Assembly: GCA_017395725.1 (NCBI GenBank)
Contig: JAFQOB010000303.1
Span: forward strand, 1-8,352
From: Clostridia bacterium
Lineage (GTDB): Bacteria; Bacillota_A; Clostridia; Oscillospirales; CAG-272
Length of the DNA: 8,352 nucleotides
Reading direction: 5' to 3'
Below are positions 70 to 8,352 of the stretch, in pieces. The translations under genes were made by a program, and so were the position numbers. Numbering within the stretch: the stretch's first letter is position 1; each line of letters opens with the position of its first letter. The notes beneath the pieces are model-generated. The model searched no databases. It saw only the letters and a program-made list of their open reading frames with translations, and was not told where the DNA came from.

Positions 70-3000
70 ATGAAAAAGTTTTCAAAACTTTTTTGGGTCG
101 CTTTAGTTGTAGTGGCAGTACTTGCTTGTACAGCTATCGGCGTATTTGCTGCAGAGACAACGTCTACTGCTGTTGTATATGCTGAGTCAGTTAAAGTGGC
201 TGACAATTTTAGTGTTGATTTCAGTTTCAAGAATAACAACACTAAAGTTGAATGTGGTAAGATCACATTAACATGGGATTCGAACAAGATGACTGCAGAG
301 TCCATCGTTGCGGCTGACGCATTAAATGGCGCACAGTTCGGTTCGAAAATTGAAAACGGTAAAGCTGTTATAGCTTGGGCAGGTTCTTCTATTTCCGATG
401 GAACAGCTACAGGCACACTCTTTACTGTAAACTTTGCAAACAAAGGCATAGCTAATGATGGCTTCGCTGTTATTGAAACTGAAGTTGATAACTTCGGTTA
501 CACAGAAGGCTTTGTTGCAAAAGAATTGAAGAGCACGGTAACAGCTTGCAGTGCATACGCAATGGGTACAGAGCTCAATGACTTTAACTACACTTCCGAT
601 ACAGCAGAATCTCCTGCTCAGTTCTTGGAAGCTGCTCTTGCACAGGCTGCTACTACAAAAGAAGATGTAACAGTACTTATTTCTTCTGAAATGGAATTCA
701 CAGAAGATGTAAGAATTGGTGAAGGCTCATACGTAGAAGATGCCGGAACAGTTTACGTTTCCGCAGCCCTTGATGCTGAAGGAATGCCTACAACCGGTAT
801 TAAGGTATATGCTGACGTTATCGTTAACATTTACGGTAAAGTAAACTTCAACAATGTTTTGATCGGTAACACACAGTATGTGTACGGAGCAACACTTCCC
901 ACTACTGTTGAAGAATTCAATAATGGTTCATCTTTGAAAAATACATACAGCTCCGGTGGTTGTATTGAATTTGCTGCAGGCTTGGGAACTTTCGGTCTTG
1001 CTGAAAATCAGGCAGAAGAAGGCGAAACTCCCGATTTTGGATACATTGGTATGTATCCGGATACTAATGCTTTCAAGGTAGTAACTGCTGAAGATACAAC
1101 AAAGACACTTGAACAGTATACAGAATACTATATGCCTCACGTTGCAGGTTATGTAAAGGTATATACAGGTACATATTGGAGTGTATCCGGTAACTATTAT
1201 AAATCCGGTGTGACTATTGACAATCCTACCGTTTATGTTGGAGGAAATTCCAGAGTGTACTACCTTTTCGGTGGTGCTCACAACGGAACTAATAAGGCTG
1301 ATAGCAACCCCATAACAGGTACAATTACTCTTGAAATTGGTGGTTATGCTAATGTAACTGATGCATCTGTAGGTTCTTGGTACTCTGCAACCAACCAGAT
1401 AGGTGGAAGCGGTACAGTGACCGACAATGCTAAGGTTTCTATTATGACTGCCGGCTTTGCAGGAAGCGGTACAATTGAAGAAAATGCTAAGTACACATTT
1501 ACAATTACTTCAGATAATGTAGAGATTGGTACGCTTGCTGCTCATAGATTTAATGGTGAGGGTCAGGCTAGTACCAATGTTCAAATGACACTTTCACAAG
1601 GTAAGATTGGGTACATTTACGGCGGATTTATTTCTGAGTGGAACTATAATTCAAGTAAAGAAACTGCTCACAATGAACTTTACGGTTTTGTTGACATTGA
1701 CATTACTAATACGATTCTTCACCCCGACAATGAAGATGGAGCCGATCCTTATCAAGTAGAGGTTTGGGGCGGTTCTGTTATGCGCCACAAAGGTGACATA
1801 CACGATGCAGAACTTACACTTGATGTAAGTAACGTAACCGGAACTGCCGGAAAACAAAGTATGAACTTCTATTTGGGTTCAAAGATGGTTGTAAATGCCA
1901 ATAGTAACAGCGGCCGTTTGGCTGATTCTACAGGTTCAGACCACTCCGGTAAGTCTGTGGCTACATTTACTGATGTAAGCTTGACAACATCCGGTTCATC
2001 TTGGGCATTGCTCAGCGGTGGTTCTTCAATTGACACTGTAAGTACTCACAGTGGTGACGTTGAAATTACTCTTACAAACTTTGATTGTGAAAAGAGAGTT
2101 ATTGGTGGTTCATACCTCAATAAATCCGGTGCAGAACACGCCGGTGATACAACGATCCATTTTGACGGTGTTTCAAGTGGTTTGACTTCAATAGTAAACG
2201 GTGGTTCTGTATGTTACAGAGCTGACACAATTCACTCCGGTAACACTAAGGTTATTCTTGAAGGTGTTGACAATACCGCAGCCAATGGTTTTGATTGTAC
2301 AGTTTACGGTGGTTCGGCACTTAACAATTCCGGTACAAAACATACCGGTACAAGTGAAGTAGAGATTTTGGGCGGAAGACCTAAGAAAGTAATATACGGC
2401 GGTTCTGAATTGAAGAATCCTCGTACTTCACAGACAAATACCTCTAAGGTAACGATAAATGGCACTACTATTACTTTAGTGAATACTGTTTACGGTGGCT
2501 CAAATGCAGCAGCATTTACAACAACAGATGCTAACGCAATTACCGAGTCCGATGTAAAGGGTGCTTATGGACACAACGCAAGCTCTTCAGTTGAGTTTAT
2601 CAAGGGATATTCCGACAATATTCACATTTACGGCGGTTCCAATCTTAACTATAGCACCGAATGGATTAAGCAGGGATATGTAGTTCAGGGTGTTAAGGAC
2701 GGAGATTGTACAACGGCGATTAACGTTGCAATAGAAAATGCCGGTCGTTCAAATGCTATGTATAGATCACAGTTGTTTGGTTCTGCAAGACTTACACAGG
2801 GCGGATTCCAGTACGGTGATTCTAAGGTTGATATTTCCGATACCAACTCATCATACAGCGGCGGATTTATTTGTGTTCAAAGAATAGCAGCAGCTTATCT
2901 CGGTGCAGGTGCCGAATTGGTAGGCGACTGTTCTGTAAACATTAATAATGATAAAGCATACGTAAGATTTAACGGCAGTACTGCGAATAACATTTATTCA

Positions 3001-5346
3001 ATCATAGGTGGTGCTTACGGTTCAGGTAAGCTTACAGGTAACTCATCTCTTACGTTTAAGGGTACGGGTGCGAAGGCTGACTTCTACAGTACCACGCTTA
3101 AAGCAAATGCAGCTTCTGTAGAATTTGTAGGTGGATGTTTCTTCACATCTGCAGACAGCGTAATGACAGGTAATTCTACACTTGAATTTGATGGTGTACA
3201 AATTACAGCAAAGGTTCAGACTACCAATGCCGGCGATACATACCTTCCCAGAAGAGTTATCGGCGGATGCTACGGTCCCGGAACAATGGTTGGTAATTCA
3301 ACATTGAAGCTTTTGTCTGATACAACTCTTAGTTATATCTCAAATAGCAATAATACAATTACAGTATTGGCAGGTTGCTATGGTACAAATGATATTACAA
3401 CAGAAAAAGACCCAACAACAGGCATATTCGGTGGAATTAGACAGACCGGTGATGTTGAATTTATAGTTGACGGCAATGTTATGGTTGACTCTTTCTGTAA
3501 TGTAGCAGGTGAAAAGAGCAACGTAGACGGTAACGTTACAATCAGAATAAGCGGCACACCTACATTCGGTCAGGTATTTAGTGCACTTGGATACAGAGAA
3601 TATTATTCATCTATTACAGGTGATTTGAAAGCTTATGTAAGCGGCGGTACATTTAACAATCACTTCTTGGCAGGCGGTAGAATTACAAACTCCGCAAATG
3701 CAACATACGGCGTAGCTCCTAACGGTGCTAACGGATTTGACTTTACCGCTGGAAATACATACGTTGAAATATCCGGCGGTACATTTAAAGGACAAATTGC
3801 TTCAGCCGGTGAAGGCGGCGCAGTTGGCGATACATACCTCAAGTTTGTAGGAGATGCATTTGATATTCAGTCGGCATCCGGTCTTTATTCAGCATCTTGG
3901 GGTGTAGGAAACAAGGTTGTAGCTAAGGAAGGTCAGAGAGATATTCTCGATTTGTCTCTTGTAACAGATCTCGCTTTGGATTACACAAACTTCACACGCG
4001 TTGCAACAGAGGGCGATACACTTCCTACGATGGGTAACACTTCTGAACGTGGATTTGATGTTGTATATCCTTCTCTCTACGATGCAAGCGCAATTACAGT
4101 ATCACTTGCTGACAAAAATATTTATCCCGGAGCAGTTTTGGAAGATGCTGATACGTTAGCAATTACCTATGCAAACGGTGTTACAGCACACACCGGTACA
4201 AGTGCCGGTAATGTAACTACAAGCAGCTTCAGCGGTACAGTTGCTGAACTTTGCGAATATGATGCTTTGGCGTCAAGTGAAGCAGCAAAGACAATTAATG
4301 CATTTAAGTATATCGATGCTGATACACAGGCAGAAATTGCTGAAGTACCTGCAAGCGCAGCCGGATTTACAACAAAGAACTTAATAGTTAAAGCAGGAAA
4401 CGCAAGTTCTGCTTCAGTTGCTGTAAGACACGGTCTCAGAATGACCGGTGCTACAATTACTCTTGAAAGTGACCTTTCCATTAAGGTTAGATTTGACAAG
4501 CCTGTTGAAAACTACTACAAAAACATTCAGCTTGTTGCAATAGATGAAGAAGGAACTGAAACAGTTCTCGAAGAATTCTCTTGGAACGGATCTAAGAATG
4601 AATTTGCTTTCTCAGGTATTTCGCCTCAGAGAATTGGTGACTTGTTTGACTTCAAACTTAGAGCTACATCTATAGCTGGTGAAGAAGTTGGTGAAACAGC
4701 GCCCACATCGTACGGTGCAATTACCTACTGTAACAGTAAGTTGAGTGACGAAAAGACAGAGCTTACAACATTGATTGTAGACTTGCTCAACTACGGTGCA
4801 GCAGCTCAGATTTATTGGGATTACAAGGCAGATTCACTCTGTAATGCTAATTTGACTGAAACCCAGAAGGCATTTGCAACTCCTGTTGATCAGATTCCTG
4901 CTTATGAAGACTACTTGAGCACTAAGTACGAAGAAATAGACAATCCTACAGTTTCATGGAAGGGTGCTACATTGTCTCCTAACGACAGAATTGACCTCAG
5001 ATTTACAATTGAAATCCCTGCAGAATCAGACGTTAATACTCTTAAGATGAAGGTTAAGGTAGGAGATAAAGAAGCGGTTTACGTAGATTGTACCGATAAA
5101 GAACCTGTTGCTAACAAAGAAAATCGTTACTATCAGAGATTTACACAGCTCTTGCCTCAGGAATTGCGTGAACCTGTTTATGTAACAATTTGTGATGCAG
5201 AAGGCAATGCATTGAGCAACACTGCACGCTACAGCGTAAGCTCTTATGCATACTCCAATACCGGTGATGGTAAGGAACAAACTCTTGTAGATTTCCTTAA
5301 CACTATGATGGCATACGGAGATGCTACAAAGGCGTATTTTGGTTAA
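70..5346 (+). CDS. Giant secreted surface protein: cohesin-like domain, beta-strand repeats, duplicated C-terminal domain
   Basis: A 1758-residue exported protein, unnamed. Residues 1-28 are a signal peptide: Lys-rich start, hydrophobic core, probable cleavage after VFA or VFAA. Residues about 33-160 look like a cohesin-type beta-sandwich (LTWDSNKM followed by GTLFTVNF). Residues about 160-390 are a beta-rich lead-in, and about 390-1300 form short beta-strand repeats rich in YGGS and GGCY turns, suggesting a beta-helix or elongated stalk. A linker of about 150 residues leads to two diverged copies of one domain at 1453-1600 and 1628-1758. No LPXTG, SLH or dockerin motif is visible, so how it stays on the cell is unknown. 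The start follows GGAGGG at 56-61 with an 8-nt spacer. It ends in three in-frame TAA codons. Adhesin or scaffold roles are inference; no catalytic motif was seen. The short peptide gene follows after 47 nt. Confidence 0.93.
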   Translation: MKKFSKLFWVALVVVAVLACTAIGVFAAETTSTAVVYAESVKVADNFSVDFSFKNNNTKVECGKITLTWDSNKMTAESIVAADALNGAQFGSKIENGKAVIAWAGSSISDGTATGTLFTVNFANKGIANDGFAVIETEVDNFGYTEGFVAKELKSTVTACSAYAMGTELNDFNYTSDTAESPAQFLEAALAQAATTKEDVTVLISSEMEFTEDVRIGEGSYVEDAGTVYVSAALDAEGMPTTGIKVYADVIVNIYGKVNFNNVLIGNTQYVYGATLPTTVEEFNNGSSLKNTYSSGGCIEFAAGLGTFGLAENQAEEGETPDFGYIGMYPDTNAFKVVTAEDTTKTLEQYTEYYMPHVAGYVKVYTGTYWSVSGNYYKSGVTIDNPTVYVGGNSRVYYLFGGAHNGTNKADSNPITGTITLEIGGYANVTDASVGSWYSATNQIGGSGTVTDNAKVSIMTAGFAGSGTIEENAKYTFTITSDNVEIGTLAAHRFNGEGQASTNVQMTLSQGKIGYIYGGFISEWNYNSSKETAHNELYGFVDIDITNTILHPDNEDGADPYQVEVWGGSVMRHKGDIHDAELTLDVSNVTGTAGKQSMNFYLGSKMVVNANSNSGRLADSTGSDHSGKSVATFTDVSLTTSGSSWALLSGGSSIDTVSTHSGDVEITLTNFDCEKRVIGGSYLNKSGAEHAGDTTIHFDGVSSGLTSIVNGGSVCYRADTIHSGNTKVILEGVDNTAANGFDCTVYGGSALNNSGTKHTGTSEVEILGGRPKKVIYGGSELKNPRTSQTNTSKVTINGTTITLVNTVYGGSNAAAFTTTDANAITESDVKGAYGHNASSSVEFIKGYSDNIHIYGGSNLNYSTEWIKQGYVVQGVKDGDCTTAINVAIENAGRSNAMYRSQLFGSARLTQGGFQYGDSKVDISDTNSSYSGGFICVQRIAAAYLGAGAELVGDCSVNINNDKAYVRFNGSTANNIYSIIGGAYGSGKLTGNSSLTFKGTGAKADFYSTTLKANAASVEFVGGCFFTSADSVMTGNSTLEFDGVQITAKVQTTNAGDTYLPRRVIGGCYGPGTMVGNSTLKLLSDTTLSYISNSNNTITVLAGCYGTNDITTEKDPTTGIFGGIRQTGDVEFIVDGNVMVDSFCNVAGEKSNVDGNVTIRISGTPTFGQVFSALGYREYYSSITGDLKAYVSGGTFNNHFLAGGRITNSANATYGVAPNGANGFDFTAGNTYVEISGGTFKGQIASAGEGGAVGDTYLKFVGDAFDIQSASGLYSASWGVGNKVVAKEGQRDILDLSLVTDLALDYTNFTRVATEGDTLPTMGNTSERGFDVVYPSLYDASAITVSLADKNIYPGAVLEDADTLAITYANGVTAHTGTSAGNVTTSSFSGTVAELCEYDALASSEAAKTINAFKYIDADTQAEIAEVPASAAGFTTKNLIVKAGNASSASVAVRHGLRMTGATITLESDLSIKVRFDKPVENYYKNIQLVAIDEEGTETVLEEFSWNGSKNEFAFSGISPQRIGDLFDFKLRATSIAGEEVGETAPTSYGAITYCNSKLSDEKTELTTLIVDLLNYGAAAQIYWDYKADSLCNANLTETQKAFATPVDQIPAYEDYLSTKYEEIDNPTVSWKGATLSPNDRIDLRFTIEIPAESDVNTLKMKVKVGDKEAVYVDCTDKEPVANKENRYYQRFTQLLPQELREPVYVTICDAEGNALSNTARYSVSSYAYSNTGDGKEQTLVDFLNTMMAYGDATKAYFG
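166..549 (+). other. Cohesin-like beta-sandwich domain of the surface protein
   Basis: Residues about 33-160. The order of elements matches cohesin-type domains: an early SVDFSFKN strand, a strand with LTWDSNKM in the place of the usual YDPSKL turn, a central IAWAG strand, then GTLFTVNF where cohesins have GxLATITF, and a final strand with NFGYTEG. Cohesins bind dockerins, but isolated cohesin-like domains also occur in non-cellulosomal surface proteins. No dockerin lies in this window, so a binding partner cannot be proposed. Confidence 0.65.
2017..2502 (+). repeat. Tandem GGS/HxG protein repeats (class 1)
   Basis: Six GGS motifs mark five consecutive units of 29, 32, 36, 30 and 32 residues (residues 650-811). 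Each unit runs: hydrophobic strand ending in (V/I)(Y/I/N), GGS turn, a short variable stretch, then usually HxG followed by a Thr/Val-rich strand (THSGD, EHAGD, IHSGN, KHTGT). The fifth unit has lost the His (SQTNT). A further DHSGK occurs just before the block. The DNA has diverged between units, so this is an old protein-level repeat, not a recent DNA duplication. Confidence 0.8.
3007..3384 (+). repeat. GG(A/C)(Y/F) protein repeats (class 2)
   Basis: Residues 980-1105 show a second repeat type. GGAYG, GGCFF, GGCYG and AGCYG begin at residues 980, 1021, 1065 and 1101, a spacing of 36 to 44 residues. The first three are followed by a conserved GNSSL or GNSTL strand. Here a Cys replaces the Ser of the class 1 GGS turn. 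Further downstream, SGGTF turns at about residues 1197 and 1236 look like a third variant. All suggest a stacked beta-strand fold. Confidence 0.7.
4426..5343 (+). repeat. Diverged tandem duplication of the C-terminal domain
   Basis: Residues 1453-1600 and 1628-1758 share the same order of elements. Each has a GATITL or GATLSP opening, a strand with IKVRF or IDLRF, a middle beta region, and a closing helix. The closing helix is LIVDLLNYGAAAQIYW in copy 1 (Tyr1575) and LVDFLNTMMAYGDATKAYF in copy 2 (Tyr1749). Copy 2 ends the protein one residue later. The paired YGxAxxxY(W/F) signature is the strongest evidence. The domain may serve attachment or assembly; that is inference. Confidence 0.7.
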
Positions 5347-5377: not shown

Positions 5378-5384
5378 AAAGGAG
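5378..5384 (+). promoter_or_regulatory. Ribosome binding site of the short peptide gene
   Basis: AAAGGAG lies 9 nt before the ATG at 5394, a near-consensus Shine-Dalgarno at normal spacing. It is the main reason to accept such a short reading frame as a gene. Confidence 0.75.
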
Positions 5385-5393
5385 CATAGATAG

Positions 5394-5510
5394 ATGAAGA
5401 AAGAATTTTTTGAACAGCCTAAAATCGAGATAATCTCATTAGGGGAAGTAGATGCCATTCTTACAAAAAGCGGTGGTAACAATGACCTTCCCGAAGATGA
5501 ATGGGATTAA
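5394..5510 (+). CDS. Short acidic 38-residue peptide, candidate RiPP-like precursor
   Basis: A 38-residue peptide with a strong Shine-Dalgarno and no Cys, signal peptide or membrane segment. The first half is KKEFFEQPKIEIISLGEVDA, a pattern (Pro, then alternating Ile/Glu, then a Leu and an Asp-x-Ile) that I recall from many tiny Clostridia ORFs, often beside large secreted proteins and of unknown role. Then comes ILTKSGG and an acidic ten-residue tail, NNDLPEDEWD. The Gly-Gly at 27-28 could be a leader/core border, although Lys at position -4 is not typical of double-glycine leaders. There are ten acidic residues against four Lys. It sits 47 nt after the surface gene without a terminator, and before a B12/radical SAM gene. 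A precursor role is inference; it could instead be a small unmodified protein. No function can be assigned from family membership. Confidence 0.75.
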   Translation: MKKEFFEQPKIEIISLGEVDAILTKSGGNNDLPEDEWD

Positions 5511-5530
5511 TCGATCGTAGGTAATACCTC

Positions 5531-5566
5531 AATACTCCCGAGAGAGTAATCTCTTGGGAGTATTTT
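5531..5566 (+). terminator. Hairpin terminator or attenuator after the peptide gene
   Basis: AATACTCCCGAGAG (5531-5544) pairs with CTCTTGGGAGTATT (5551-5564) through 14 pairs, one of them G-U, around the six-base loop AGTAAT. The T-run is short: four T's at 5563-5566, two of them inside the stem, followed by GG. Termination of the surface-protein/peptide transcript is likely, but possibly incomplete, leaving some read-through into the radical SAM gene. Confidence 0.75.
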
Positions 5567-5594
5567 GGTAATATTATATTAAATGTAATATAGT
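5565..5594 (+). promoter_or_regulatory. Possible promoter for the radical SAM gene
   Basis: TTGGTA (5565-5570) and TATAGT (5589-5594) are spaced 18 bases apart and lie upstream of the GGAG at 5611-5614. The match to sigma-70 boxes is moderate, in a very A/T-rich stretch where such matches arise by chance. If real, the enzyme is transcribed separately from the peptide. Confidence 0.3.
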
Positions 5595-5621
5595 ATTCAA
5601 AAAAAATTCCGGAGTAAAAAA

Positions 5622-7013
5622 ATGAAAAAATGTGACGTATTGTATATTCATTCCACGAGAAATCCTATTGGCGAAGACAATATGAAATTTGCCGTAATGC
5701 CTATGGGAATTATCGGTATTTTGAATAATCTGAAATCCAAAGATATTGATATTCTTGGACTAAATTATGCAATTGAAAAGACACTTGATTCTTCATTTGA
5801 GCTTTTAGATGCATTGAATAATATTGAGTATAAGATTCTGATGACTGACCTACATTGGTATGAACACTCATTTGGAGCAATGTACGTTGCAGAGCAGTCA
5901 AAAAAAGCAAAGCCTAATACACCTGTAATTATCGGTGGGTATACAAGTACAATTTATTCGGAAGAGATAATGCGTAATTTTGACTGTGTAGACTATATTG
6001 TTACCGGAGACAGTGATTTGCCTACAGAAATGCTTGTTGAAAGACTGCTTGGAAGAACAAGTACAGATTTTCGAAAAATACCGAATATATGGTACAGAGA
6101 TGATGGAATAAAATGTTCTGGAGAGACGTGGGTGCAGACTGATTTAGATTCAATTGATTTTATAAATACCGATTTTTTTGAACACGAGAAACTTGTCCCA
6201 TATCTTTCAACCGGCGGGGCAAAAAGAGTAAAGAGCGAACGTTGGATATGCATTGCAAGGGGCTGTAAGTATAACTGTGCATATTGTTGCGGCGCAAATA
6301 AAAATATGGAAGCATTATTCAAAAGATGCAACGTATTGACACGTTCTCCTGAAAAAGTGGCACAGGACTTTTTTGAATTAGATTCAAAAGGAATATGGCA
6401 TATTGCTCCAAGTCACGACTTTCAAATGTTTGGTAAAGCATATTACAAGAGTGTTTTTTCAGAGATAAGAAAAAGAAATATAAAGCCCGGATTATACCTG
6501 GAATGTTTTCAGTTGCCGACAAAAGATTTTATAGATGAAATAGAACAAACATTTGATAAAAAGAGAACAATTTTAGTTATCTCTCCAATAAGCGGAAACG
6601 AAAAAATAAGGTTTGAAAACGGGAAAAAATTCTCCAATAATGATTTTTATGAAGCGGTAAATTATATTATATCAAAAGGAATTCCCATACAAATATATTA
6701 TACTCAAAATCCTATTGGTGAAACAAACGAACAATATGAAGATACTGTTTTCCAAATGACTTATCTAAGGCAATTGTACGGTCTTACAAAAAATAATGTG
6801 TTTTATCAAAGAGTAGTAATTGACCCACTTGCAGGTATGAGAGATTGGAATAATGTTGAGGTTAAATATAATACGTTTATGGATTATTATAACTACTGCA
6901 AAAATACGACCTCAGATCGTGCTCCTACCGGATACAATGACGGAGGAGAAGTTCCTCTTGAGACTAAAAAGAAAATGTATAATACTTTATTTGGAATATC
7001 GAATGAAAAATAA
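5622..7013 (+). CDS. B12-binding-domain radical SAM protein
   Basis: A 463-residue cytoplasmic protein. Residues 1 to about 190 resemble a cobalamin-binding Rossmann domain: an opening DVLYIHS strand, MPMGIIGILNNLK, D76-L-H78-W with H82 and G85, then VIIGGYTS (G105-G106) and YIVTGDSDLP. This matches from memory the DLHW/GGxxA/GDSTE style of the B12-binding/radical SAM group that includes archaeal Ta0216-like proteins, rather than the classic DxHxxG form. Residues about 205-420 form the radical SAM core, with C215, C219 and C222 (GCKYNCAYC) as the 4Fe-4S ligands and an extra adjacent C223. Radical SAM enzymes cleave S-adenosylmethionine to start radical chemistry; B12-containing members often methylate unreactive carbons. 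The substrate here is unknown; the neighbouring peptide is the obvious candidate. No SPASM or RRE domain was recognised. The start follows GGAG with a 7-nt spacer. The gene looks more A/T-rich than its neighbours. Confidence 0.9.
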   Translation: MKKCDVLYIHSTRNPIGEDNMKFAVMPMGIIGILNNLKSKDIDILGLNYAIEKTLDSSFELLDALNNIEYKILMTDLHWYEHSFGAMYVAEQSKKAKPNTPVIIGGYTSTIYSEEIMRNFDCVDYIVTGDSDLPTEMLVERLLGRTSTDFRKIPNIWYRDDGIKCSGETWVQTDLDSIDFINTDFFEHEKLVPYLSTGGAKRVKSERWICIARGCKYNCAYCCGANKNMEALFKRCNVLTRSPEKVAQDFFELDSKGIWHIAPSHDFQMFGKAYYKSVFSEIRKRNIKPGLYLECFQLPTKDFIDEIEQTFDKKRTILVISPISGNEKIRFENGKKFSNNDFYEAVNYIISKGIPIQIYYTQNPIGETNEQYEDTVFQMTYLRQLYGLTKNNVFYQRVVIDPLAGMRDWNNVEVKYNTFMDYYNYCKNTTSDRAPTGYNDGGEVPLETKKKMYNTLFGISNEK

Positions 7014-7056: not shown

Positions 7057-7128
7057 AAGCAGAAATTTTGTGTAATGTCTTTTTTAATATAAAGACAAAA
7101 CAAAATTTCTGCTTATATTTTTATTTAA
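7057..7128. terminator. Long two-part hairpin between convergent genes, probably bidirectional
   Basis: AAGCAGAAATTTTGT (7057-7071) pairs perfectly with 7100-7114 (15 bp). After a small internal loop, TGTCTTT (7076-7082) pairs with AAAGACA (7091-7097) around an eight-base loop. On the plus strand it is followed by TATATTTTTATTT, which ends the radical SAM transcript and overlaps the stop codon of the minus-strand gene. On the minus strand it is followed by TTGTTAT, a weaker tail. Confidence 0.75.
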
Positions 7129-8341
7129 TTACAAATCCTGCGGGGAGGAACCACGAAGCATTAGTGTAGTAGAACGTAACGCTTGTCATAAGATATTCGC
7201 CGTCATAATACATACAGGAAGAAGAGCCGCCGTCCAGGTTTGCTGCATTAACCGCGCCGAAGTCTTGCATAACTTTTATAAGGTCCGAAGCCGAGGCGCC
7301 GAGGTGTCCGTTCTTTCCGCGTCCGTCGGTTACGAACATCAAAACTGCACCGTCTTCTCTTTGACCGATAGCGGTTCTGGGATTAAGTCCGCTTCCCATA
7401 CCGTTCATTTCACGGACTTCTCCGTTAATAATAAGCTGAACAAAGTGGTTGTTTGCATCAGAAGCTTCGTCTTGGAAAGTAACAGCATCACGTATCTTCT
7501 TTTCTTTTACAAGCTTTTCAACCTGTTTTGCGTTCATCTTTGAAATGTCGATAATCTGAAGAACGTTATTTTCAGTAAATCCAATAAGCACAAGACCTGC
7601 GAAGCTTTGGGGCTGATTGTACTGAATCTCTCCGTTTGACACGATTACTCCGTAGGGAGAACCGCCTGTGTTTTTGTGGGAGTTATAAAGCCCGCCGTTT
7701 ATACCGCCTATAGCATTATTGTCCTTTACGAGCTGGTCAAGAGTTACGCCGATCTCTCTCCAAGGGTATATTGTAGCAAGGCTTATACGGGAGGGGTCTT
7801 TAACTATCATCATAGTACCGTAGTAGGTTGCATCGGAAACCTCGTGTATTTCTATGGGAGCGTCGTTTTCTGTGGAGGTATCGTTTTGTTCGCTGTCTGT
7901 AGCTGTAATATCGATGTCAAGCTTGCCGGTAATTTTTGTTCCGTCAAGGTTTATTAAACCCTCGTCAACGTTGGCGTCCATATCCTTCATCTTATTCTTA
8001 TCTACAATAGCTTGAATTGAATCTGACGAAAGATAGAGCGAGGGAATAAACTTAAAAGCTCCTGTTTCAAGAAACGTCGGTACGGTGATATATAATATTT
8101 CCGATATTTTTCCCTCAGCCTTTTCCTGTTTTGAGACACGGTTTGCACAGAGCATACCTAATGCACAATACAGGGTAAGTACTACCGCAAAAACAAACGT
8201 AAATATAAATGCAAGGGTTCTTAATATTATCTTTCCTATACTTGTTTGTTTTTTAGGTTTGTGTGGGCGGCGGGGCTTAAGCTTTGAAACGTCTATTTCG
8301 TTTTCGTCCTTGTTTTCAGGTGGATTAATCTTAGTTTTCAT
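7121..8341 (-). CDS. Membrane-anchored phosphodiester glycosidase (NAGPA-like) family protein
   Basis: A 406-residue protein from the ATG at 8341. Residues 1-37 are a hydrophilic, basic cytoplasmic tail (KPRRPHKPKK). Residues 38-64 are one transmembrane segment, and the rest should lie outside the cell. Residues about 170-406 are the phosphodiester glycosidase domain (PF09992 type): INGGLYN at 214-220, NPRTAIG at 320-326, VTDGR at 337-341 and NLDGGSSS at 368-375. The human relative removes GlcNAc from phosphodiester-linked sugars. Bacterial members are linked to exopolysaccharide or cell-wall glycan processing, but this protein's substrate is unknown. In-frame codons continue to a TTG at 8350, and no Shine-Dalgarno is visible in the 11 bases left before the window ends, so a start further upstream is possible. 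It converges on the radical SAM gene and probably belongs to a separate transcript. Confidence 0.9.
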   Translation of the reverse strand: MKTKINPPENKDENEIDVSKLKPRRPHKPKKQTSIGKIILRTLAFIFTFVFAVVLTLYCALGMLCANRVSKQEKAEGKISEILYITVPTFLETGAFKFIPSLYLSSDSIQAIVDKNKMKDMDANVDEGLINLDGTKITGKLDIDITATDSEQNDTSTENDAPIEIHEVSDATYYGTMMIVKDPSRISLATIYPWREIGVTLDQLVKDNNAIGGINGGLYNSHKNTGGSPYGVIVSNGEIQYNQPQSFAGLVLIGFTENNVLQIIDISKMNAKQVEKLVKEKKIRDAVTFQDEASDANNHFVQLIINGEVREMNGMGSGLNPRTAIGQREDGAVLMFVTDGRGKNGHLGASASDLIKVMQDFGAVNAANLDGGSSSCMYYDGEYLMTSVTFYYTNASWFLPAGFVIK

Positions 8342-8352
8342 TATTAACAATC

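Follow-up and report, generated by a model that had tools for sequence, protein, structure and literature searches.

A leader peptide resembling LPP precursors and its B12/radical SAM neighbour in a Clostridia genome

In an 8,352-nucleotide stretch of Clostridia bacterium DNA, referred to here as the window, a gene for a 38-residue peptide lies directly before a gene whose product resembles B12-dependent radical SAM enzymes, which raises the question whether the two form a ribosomal peptide precursor and its modifying enzyme. An earlier note, made from the sequence alone, had read them as a candidate minimal pair. The analysis presented here leads us to a different arrangement, held tentatively and at slightly less than an even chance, where the 38-aa gene would encode an LPP-like RiPP precursor (LPP, linear polyphosphorylated peptides) and the adjoining gene an accessory tailoring enzyme.

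The peptide gene and its leader class

Translation of the peptide ORF (MKKEFFEQPKIEIISLGEVDAILTKSGGNNDLPEDEWD) agrees with the earlier note in position and length, in the Gly-Gly pair at residues 27-28, in the Trp-Asp C-terminal end and in the absence of cysteine, which, as had been argued there, rules out thioether chemistry on this peptide (Table 1). The 111 nt from the end of the peptide gene to the start of the enzyme gene hold a hairpin (-31.8 kcal/mol, z = -7.6) with a counterpart in the related locus L001 (z = -6.3), in agreement with the terminator previously placed between the genes; the hairpin is absent from the output of a consensus terminator scan. Since it is very stable in both loci, the peptide gene probably closes the transcript of the upstream secreted protein, with transcription of the enzyme gene starting anew. 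L001 encodes, in the same position, a 36-aa peptide with 49% identity to that of the window, adjoined by an enzyme with 82% identity, and the differences between the two peptide genes number 12, 8 and 15 at codon positions 1, 2 and 3 (32 codons), in themselves only weak evidence of coding constraint. Searches of the window with Rfam returned nothing at the gathering threshold, and a promoter scan found sites no more numerous than in shuffles.

Table 1. Coordinates of features in the window and of secreted proteins that share a peptide tail in other loci
Feature	Locus	Positions	Strand	Basis or paired terminal residues
Secreted protein, 1758 aa, last ~250 residues = domain X	Window	70-5346	+	ORF; no Pfam match at cut-off
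Domain X, ~250 aa, end of secreted protein facing the peptide	Window	4585-5343	+	Profile, structure model
Shine-Dalgarno-like AAGGAG for the peptide	Window	5379-5384	+	Sequence; 9 nt 5' of ATG
Peptide ORF, 38 aa	Window	5394-5510 (stop included)	+	ORF translation, homology to leader class
Leader part, residues 1-26: FxxPxI, D20, then DAILTKS	Window	5394-5471	+	Alignment; putative leader/tail border
Tail, residues 27-38, GGNNDLPEDEWD, bearing LPxDxW	Window	5472-5507	+	Alignment, tail comparison
15-bp hairpin between peptide and enzyme genes, probable terminator of the secreted-protein/peptide transcript	Window	5531-5564	+	Folding
B12-binding/radical SAM enzyme, 463 aa	Window	5622-7013	+	ORF, sub-threshold Pfam, NCBIfam, AlphaFold2 model
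CxxxCxxC cluster motif, residues 215-222	Window	6264-6287	+	Three Cys invariant across 44-sequence alignment
NAGPA-family phosphodiester glycosidase gene, converging on the enzyme gene	Window	7121-8350	-	Pfam
Tail-sharing secreted protein	L227	6801-7399		DDNVDWGDWQS/DDNVDWDAWQT
Tail-sharing secreted protein	L140	8157-9131		WETPDL/WETPDL
Tail-sharing secreted protein	L217	6381-7550		MPENMTCIS/MPENMTPIS
Tail-sharing secreted protein	L095	908-6135		GGGWT/GSGWT
Tail-sharing secreted protein	L077	798-2306		NQLPLG/NQLPLG
Tail-sharing secreted protein	L137	346-1363		LEEF/LEEF

The window peptide belongs to a large class of leader peptides with the pattern [YF]xxPx[IV]...DxIxTS followed by a variable acidic tail; neither the peptide nor the class has a match in Pfam or NCBIfam, and we found no paper on DVITTS or TIGR04190, the family model nearest to the enzyme. 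A five-sequence profile yields 141 matches in 71 of 295 genomes at E ≤ 0.1, where up to about 30 chance matches are expected, and 48 at E < 1e-3, where about 0.3 are expected over the 295 genomes; one candidate of genome G001 (C11) was dropped because it lies within a 286-aa frame. Two genomes have eight such matches each, and in another the count reaches 12 with a broader profile (E ≤ 0.1). At one alignment column Ser occupies at least 90% of 45 class members and the window has Lys; by alignment its DAILTKS has one residue more than the common form DVITTS, which places the serine at S26, and a serine one residue later (DxILTxS) is likewise present in L001, L044 and L055. The first position of the leader motif is Phe in the window and L001 (FxxPxI) and Tyr in many class members. 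In two genomes, a tandem pair of class peptides (L050, 5998-6308; L054, 5787-6096) precedes a gene for a protein of ~1030 aa whose N-terminus is signal-like.

The statistics on gene context given below cover 66 peptides, near-identical paralogues of one genome included, from 60 regions chosen in descending order from the table of 141 matches, a few rows being skipped, plus the window and L001; those on tails cover 104 unique peptides after merging by the last 30 residues.

Kinase loci and secreted neighbours

Genomes that encode a class peptide are enriched in an HprK-like kinase (E ≤ 1e-50), which is present in 65 of 71 peptide-positive and 35 of 80 peptide-negative genomes (Fisher test, 1.7e-10), and four of the six peptide-positive genomes without it have weak peptide matches (E 0.006-0.094). 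A second test with the broader, 45-sequence profile, covering 78 of the 80 peptide-negative genomes, recovers a peptide in 24 of 34 kinase-positive and 2 of 44 kinase-negative genomes (3.6e-10), both of the latter matches being frames of more than 500 aa. Among 41 distinct kinases in the loci examined, many of which were chosen for a peptide or radical SAM match and some of which stop at contig edges, 25 are accompanied by PqqD, 27 by a protease, 14 by an NTP transferase and 10 by all three, and a class peptide lies within 4 kb of 18. Genome G002 has the set of kinase, RRE, protease and NTP transferase complete (L165). G001, the closest relative, has one divergent stand-alone kinase, beside which RRE, protease and NTP transferase were not seen, and a weaker kinase match in an exopolysaccharide-like locus. 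The ABC_tran domain occurs in 2 of 65 scanned cassette-neighbour ORFs, one of which is probably the 573-aa gene 3' of the protease in L167.

Among side observations on these genes, the signal-peptidase-like protease and the NTP_transf_5 protein are fused into one protein in L072 (11004-12515) and L165 (1143-2687). An apparent exopolysaccharide locus of G001 (L181, 6295-9452) holds an HprK-like kinase, a CxxxCxxC radical SAM-like gene and PqqD, and no class peptide was seen there.

These data bear on the earlier claim of a RiPP precursor pair in two ways. The precursor part is supported for the leader class as a whole, since this tracks a kinase whose gene is often found in an RRE/protease/NTP transferase operon; the self-sufficiency of the pair is not supported, as the main maturation set appears to be encoded elsewhere and the enzyme is nearby only in the window and L001. 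In keeping with what had been noted before, none of the window's four long ORFs matches an RRE, a SPASM domain, an exporter or a protease in Pfam or NCBIfam.

Most class members adjoin genes for secreted proteins rather than radical SAM genes. With secreted proteins called by a crude hydrophobic-stretch rule and the domain X profile trained on these same loci, a same-strand secreted or domain X neighbour lies within 100 nt of 44 of the 66 peptides and 44 of 378 control genes, and domain X alone accounts for 32 of 66 and 9 of 378, respectively. The domain tends to occupy the peptide-facing end of its protein, C-terminal where the protein is upstream and near the N-terminus where it is downstream. 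Its structure model is confident, and the best solved match is a CBM21 domain at 1.6e-3, with none at E ≤ 1e-3.

In several loci the same-strand secreted neighbour ends in the peptide's own tail (Table 1), and by eye these neighbours are lipoprotein-, SLH- or stalk-like, with the SLH assignment backed by Pfam in L137 and L146. Over 90 loci, overlapping ones included (L089/L135), the mean best tail score is 12.4, compared to 10.3 +/- 0.35 in 500 between-locus shuffles, run across genomes and with composition uncontrolled, none of which reach 12.4. A tail match is absent in most of the 90 loci, and genes were called by longest ORF, sometimes in antisense frames, which, like the crude rule for secreted proteins, weakens single rows of the comparison; four to ten matching terminal residues in an adjoining gene are nonetheless hard to explain by composition. 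A limited search of G001 and G002 with an LPxDxW DNA pattern, which misses G002's own LPPDW form, returned the L001 peptide and two matches in ~50-residue frames, and thus no tail-sharing partner for the window peptide. In L179 (4678-6982) and L182 (5859-8187), a divergent HprK-like kinase without PqqD adjoins a domain X protein whose own C-terminus resembles peptide tails (PELPEIP, PEMPDM).

Radical SAM enzymes and peptide tails

The description of the downstream gene as B12-binding and radical SAM is borne out by Pfam matches slightly under the cut-offs (B12-binding, E 1.7e-6; Radical_SAM, E 7.3e-6), by a CxxxCxxC motif in the radical SAM domain fused to the cobalamin-binding one, and by a confident AlphaFold2 model (mean pLDDT 95.4). 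The first solved structures matched by the model are TsrM, MgmA, CysS, TokK and OxsB, with AprD4 also present, and matches down to rank 14 share 10-16% identity; the closest, TsrM, was solved with a Trp substrate. The nearest NCBIfam model is TIGR04190 (2e-60, yet far below that model's cut-off), with ApyD and rSAM_ocin_1 among the weak matches. The SPASM models of Pfam and NCBIfam do not match the protein, and no added substrate-recognition domain was found in it.

At E ≤ 1e-3 the enzyme has 227 relatives; among the best 120, the first 76 are at least 48% identical, after which identity falls to 44%. In overlapping genome samples it is rare, with 1 of 295 genomes in the family of G001, 1 of 16 in that of G002, 3 of 391 in the class (G001, G002 and one at 26% identity) and 1 of 394 in the order (G001 again), and viral contigs, plasmids and phages gave no relatives at the limits used. 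The G002 enzyme (60% identity) stands alone, with the G002 peptides on another contig. Distant relatives (26-34%) lie in contexts judged by eye to be unrelated and partly lipid-like, beside genes that look like FAD oxidoreductases and RND-type exporters. The earlier note would have given up the pairing if homologues of the peptide almost never had a radical SAM gene nearby, and for the B12 enzyme this is the situation found, because only the window and L001 of the 66 peptides read in context have it as a neighbour.

A second type of radical SAM gene follows the class peptide of L052, and the nearest NCBIfam models of its product are radical SAM/SPASM RiPP maturases, below cut-off, with no match to the Pfam SPASM model. 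Around several genes of this type a PqqD-type RRE, an HprK-like P-loop kinase, a signal-peptidase-like protease and an NTP_transf_5 protein recur. Relatives of the L052 protein (E < 1e-40) occur in 16 of 295 genomes, 11 of which are peptide-positive, compared to 60 of the remaining 279 (p 1.2e-4). When the peptides of L144 and L145, found by eye or pattern, are left out, the tail contains Cys in 10 of 11 peptides within 1.6 kb of an L052-type gene and in 6 of 93 others, which is the covariation expected of an enzyme and its substrate.

For the B12 enzyme, LPxD(x)W is found near the C-terminus of all four peptides from genomes that encode it and of 1 of 100 others, a statistic that rests on three genomes, two of them related; the carriers, 5 of 104 unique peptides, are those of the window, L001 and L060 and both G002 peptides. 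By analogy with the Cys-tailed peptides, and as a suggestion only, the Cys-free tail may be the target of the B12 enzyme. With radical SAM genes beside Cys-tailed members and LPxD(x)W in all four peptides, an enzyme-substrate link is plausible, whether in cis or in trans.

Competing readings and known systems

From the leader class, the kinase co-occurrence, the kinase's usual gene partners and the predicted fold of the enzyme, all observed here, we infer how recognition, phosphorylation, cleavage and methylation might proceed and what role the window enzyme might have. The precursor gene would come last on the mRNA of a large secreted protein, as in many class members, and the genes for kinase, RRE and protease would lie elsewhere in genomes of this kind. 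The leader, taken as the first ~26 residues, would be bound through FxxPxI by a PqqD-type RRE; the serine at the leader/tail border would be phosphorylated by an HprK-like kinase, and the peptide cut near that border by a signal-peptidase-like protease. The B12/radical SAM enzyme, most likely a C-methyltransferase, would act on the LPxD(x)W tail, an add-on role to which we assign about even odds. Against the reading as precursor plus accessory enzyme stand the adjacency of the two genes in two related loci only, the separate G002 contigs, the intergenic hairpin, Phe instead of Tyr or Trp at the RRE position, Lys in the serine column with Ser one residue later, the divergent and weaker kinase matches that alone were found in G001, and the unrelated contexts of distant enzyme relatives.

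Several of these points would also fit an LPP-like precursor beside a B12/radical SAM gene that is unrelated to it, is driven from a separate promoter and encodes an enzyme for some other substrate, be it a lipid, a glycan or another small molecule, a reading that we consider a serious possibility, with a probability appreciably below one half. It accommodates the hairpin, the unlinked G002 enzyme, the contrast between an enzyme in 1 and a class peptide in 71 of the family's 295 genomes, the FAD oxidoreductase- and RND-type exporter-like genes seen by eye beside distant relatives, and a nearest model, TIGR04190, that is not named as a RiPP family; it leaves unexplained the conserved position of both genes in the window and L001 at 82% enzyme identity, the LPxD(x)W motif common to all four peptides, and the other radical SAM type beside other class members. 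The frequent secreted and domain X neighbours (44/66 and 32/66) could alternatively mean that the peptide is no RiPP precursor but works as a small partner to the large protein, helping for instance with its secretion or assembly, from a gene next to domain X. We regard this as quite unlikely in view of class members in kinase/RRE/protease/NTP transferase operons and beside radical SAM genes, the strong kinase co-occurrence, and tail cysteines that go with a nearby radical SAM gene. That the peptide ORF is spurious, as its shortness and lack of Pfam or NCBIfam matches might suggest, is very improbable given a homologue in the same place in L001, a ribosome site and class-wide conserved residues.

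If the preferred reading of an LPP-like precursor is extended to the tail-sharing proteins, gut Clostridia might possess an LPP-like system whose genes are dispersed: a single kinase/RRE/protease/NTP transferase set, optionally joined by a local B12 or other radical SAM enzyme, would mature many leader peptides in trans. A surface stalk protein encoded next door, either a lipoprotein or an SLH protein, would repeat the peptide's tail at its C-terminus, and the unmodified tail on display and the modified peptide after release would then compete for, or report on, one surface partner, possibly domain X. We consider this model rather unlikely as a whole.

Among known systems, paeninodin-like phosphorylated lasso peptides share the HprK-like kinase, NTP transferase, PqqD-type RRE and [YW]xxP leader as described (PMC7533575, PMC13381572). 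A lasso peptide was rejected, as the window's four long ORFs encode no macrolactam synthetase or B2 protease; around 12 kinase loci, where 65 of the 94 ORFs matched 43 families, neither is among the first 25 of these families. A sactipeptide or ranthipeptide was likewise rejected, the window peptide having no Cys and the enzyme no SPASM model match. Radical SAM/SPASM RiPP maturases (TIGR04463-like) have relatives beside Cys-tailed class members in sister genomes, below NCBIfam cut-offs, and are another enzyme type than that of the window. The latter shares the B12-binding and radical SAM fold of the methyltransferases TsrM, MgmA, ApyD and rSAM_ocin_1, yet structural-match identities are low and NCBIfam cut-offs are missed by far.

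The closest likeness is to LPP (Popov et al. 2026, PMC13381572), in which, according to the main text, the RRE binds YxxP, the kinase phosphorylates core Ser (in LppA) and an SpI-like protease cuts the leader. Like LPP, the class has short precursors of variable C-terminus and an HprK-like kinase that is often accompanied by members of the set known there, a discrete PqqD-type RRE, a signal-peptidase-I-like protease and an NTP transferase; the leader motif of LPP is [Y/W]xxPx[L/V/I/F/A] with a conserved Ser downstream. LPP precursors have FETxxS after YxxPx[IV], whereas the class has DVITTS and the window DAILTKS; the window and L001 have Phe for Tyr/Trp at the RRE-binding position, and the candidates for the MsbA-like exporter of LPP clusters are the sparse ABC_tran matches noted above. 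With the YxxPx[IV] spacing and the near-invariant Ser kept and the window Ser shifted, we therefore read the class as LPP-like, not as proven LPP. In a term search of that paper's main text, "radical SAM", "B12", "lipoprotein" and "Clostridi" all go unmatched. Unlike LPP as described there, the class resides in gut Clostridia MAGs, with up to 12 profile matches per genome (E ≤ 0.1), often beside large secreted proteins, and has radical SAM neighbours. The present analysis thus connects a large group of Clostridia peptides with the LPP gene set and adds radical SAM neighbours of two types. The biological role of LPP is given in that source as unknown, and the coupling of many peptides to surface proteins, some ending in the same tail, provides a functional clue through which the role of LPP-like peptides becomes testable.
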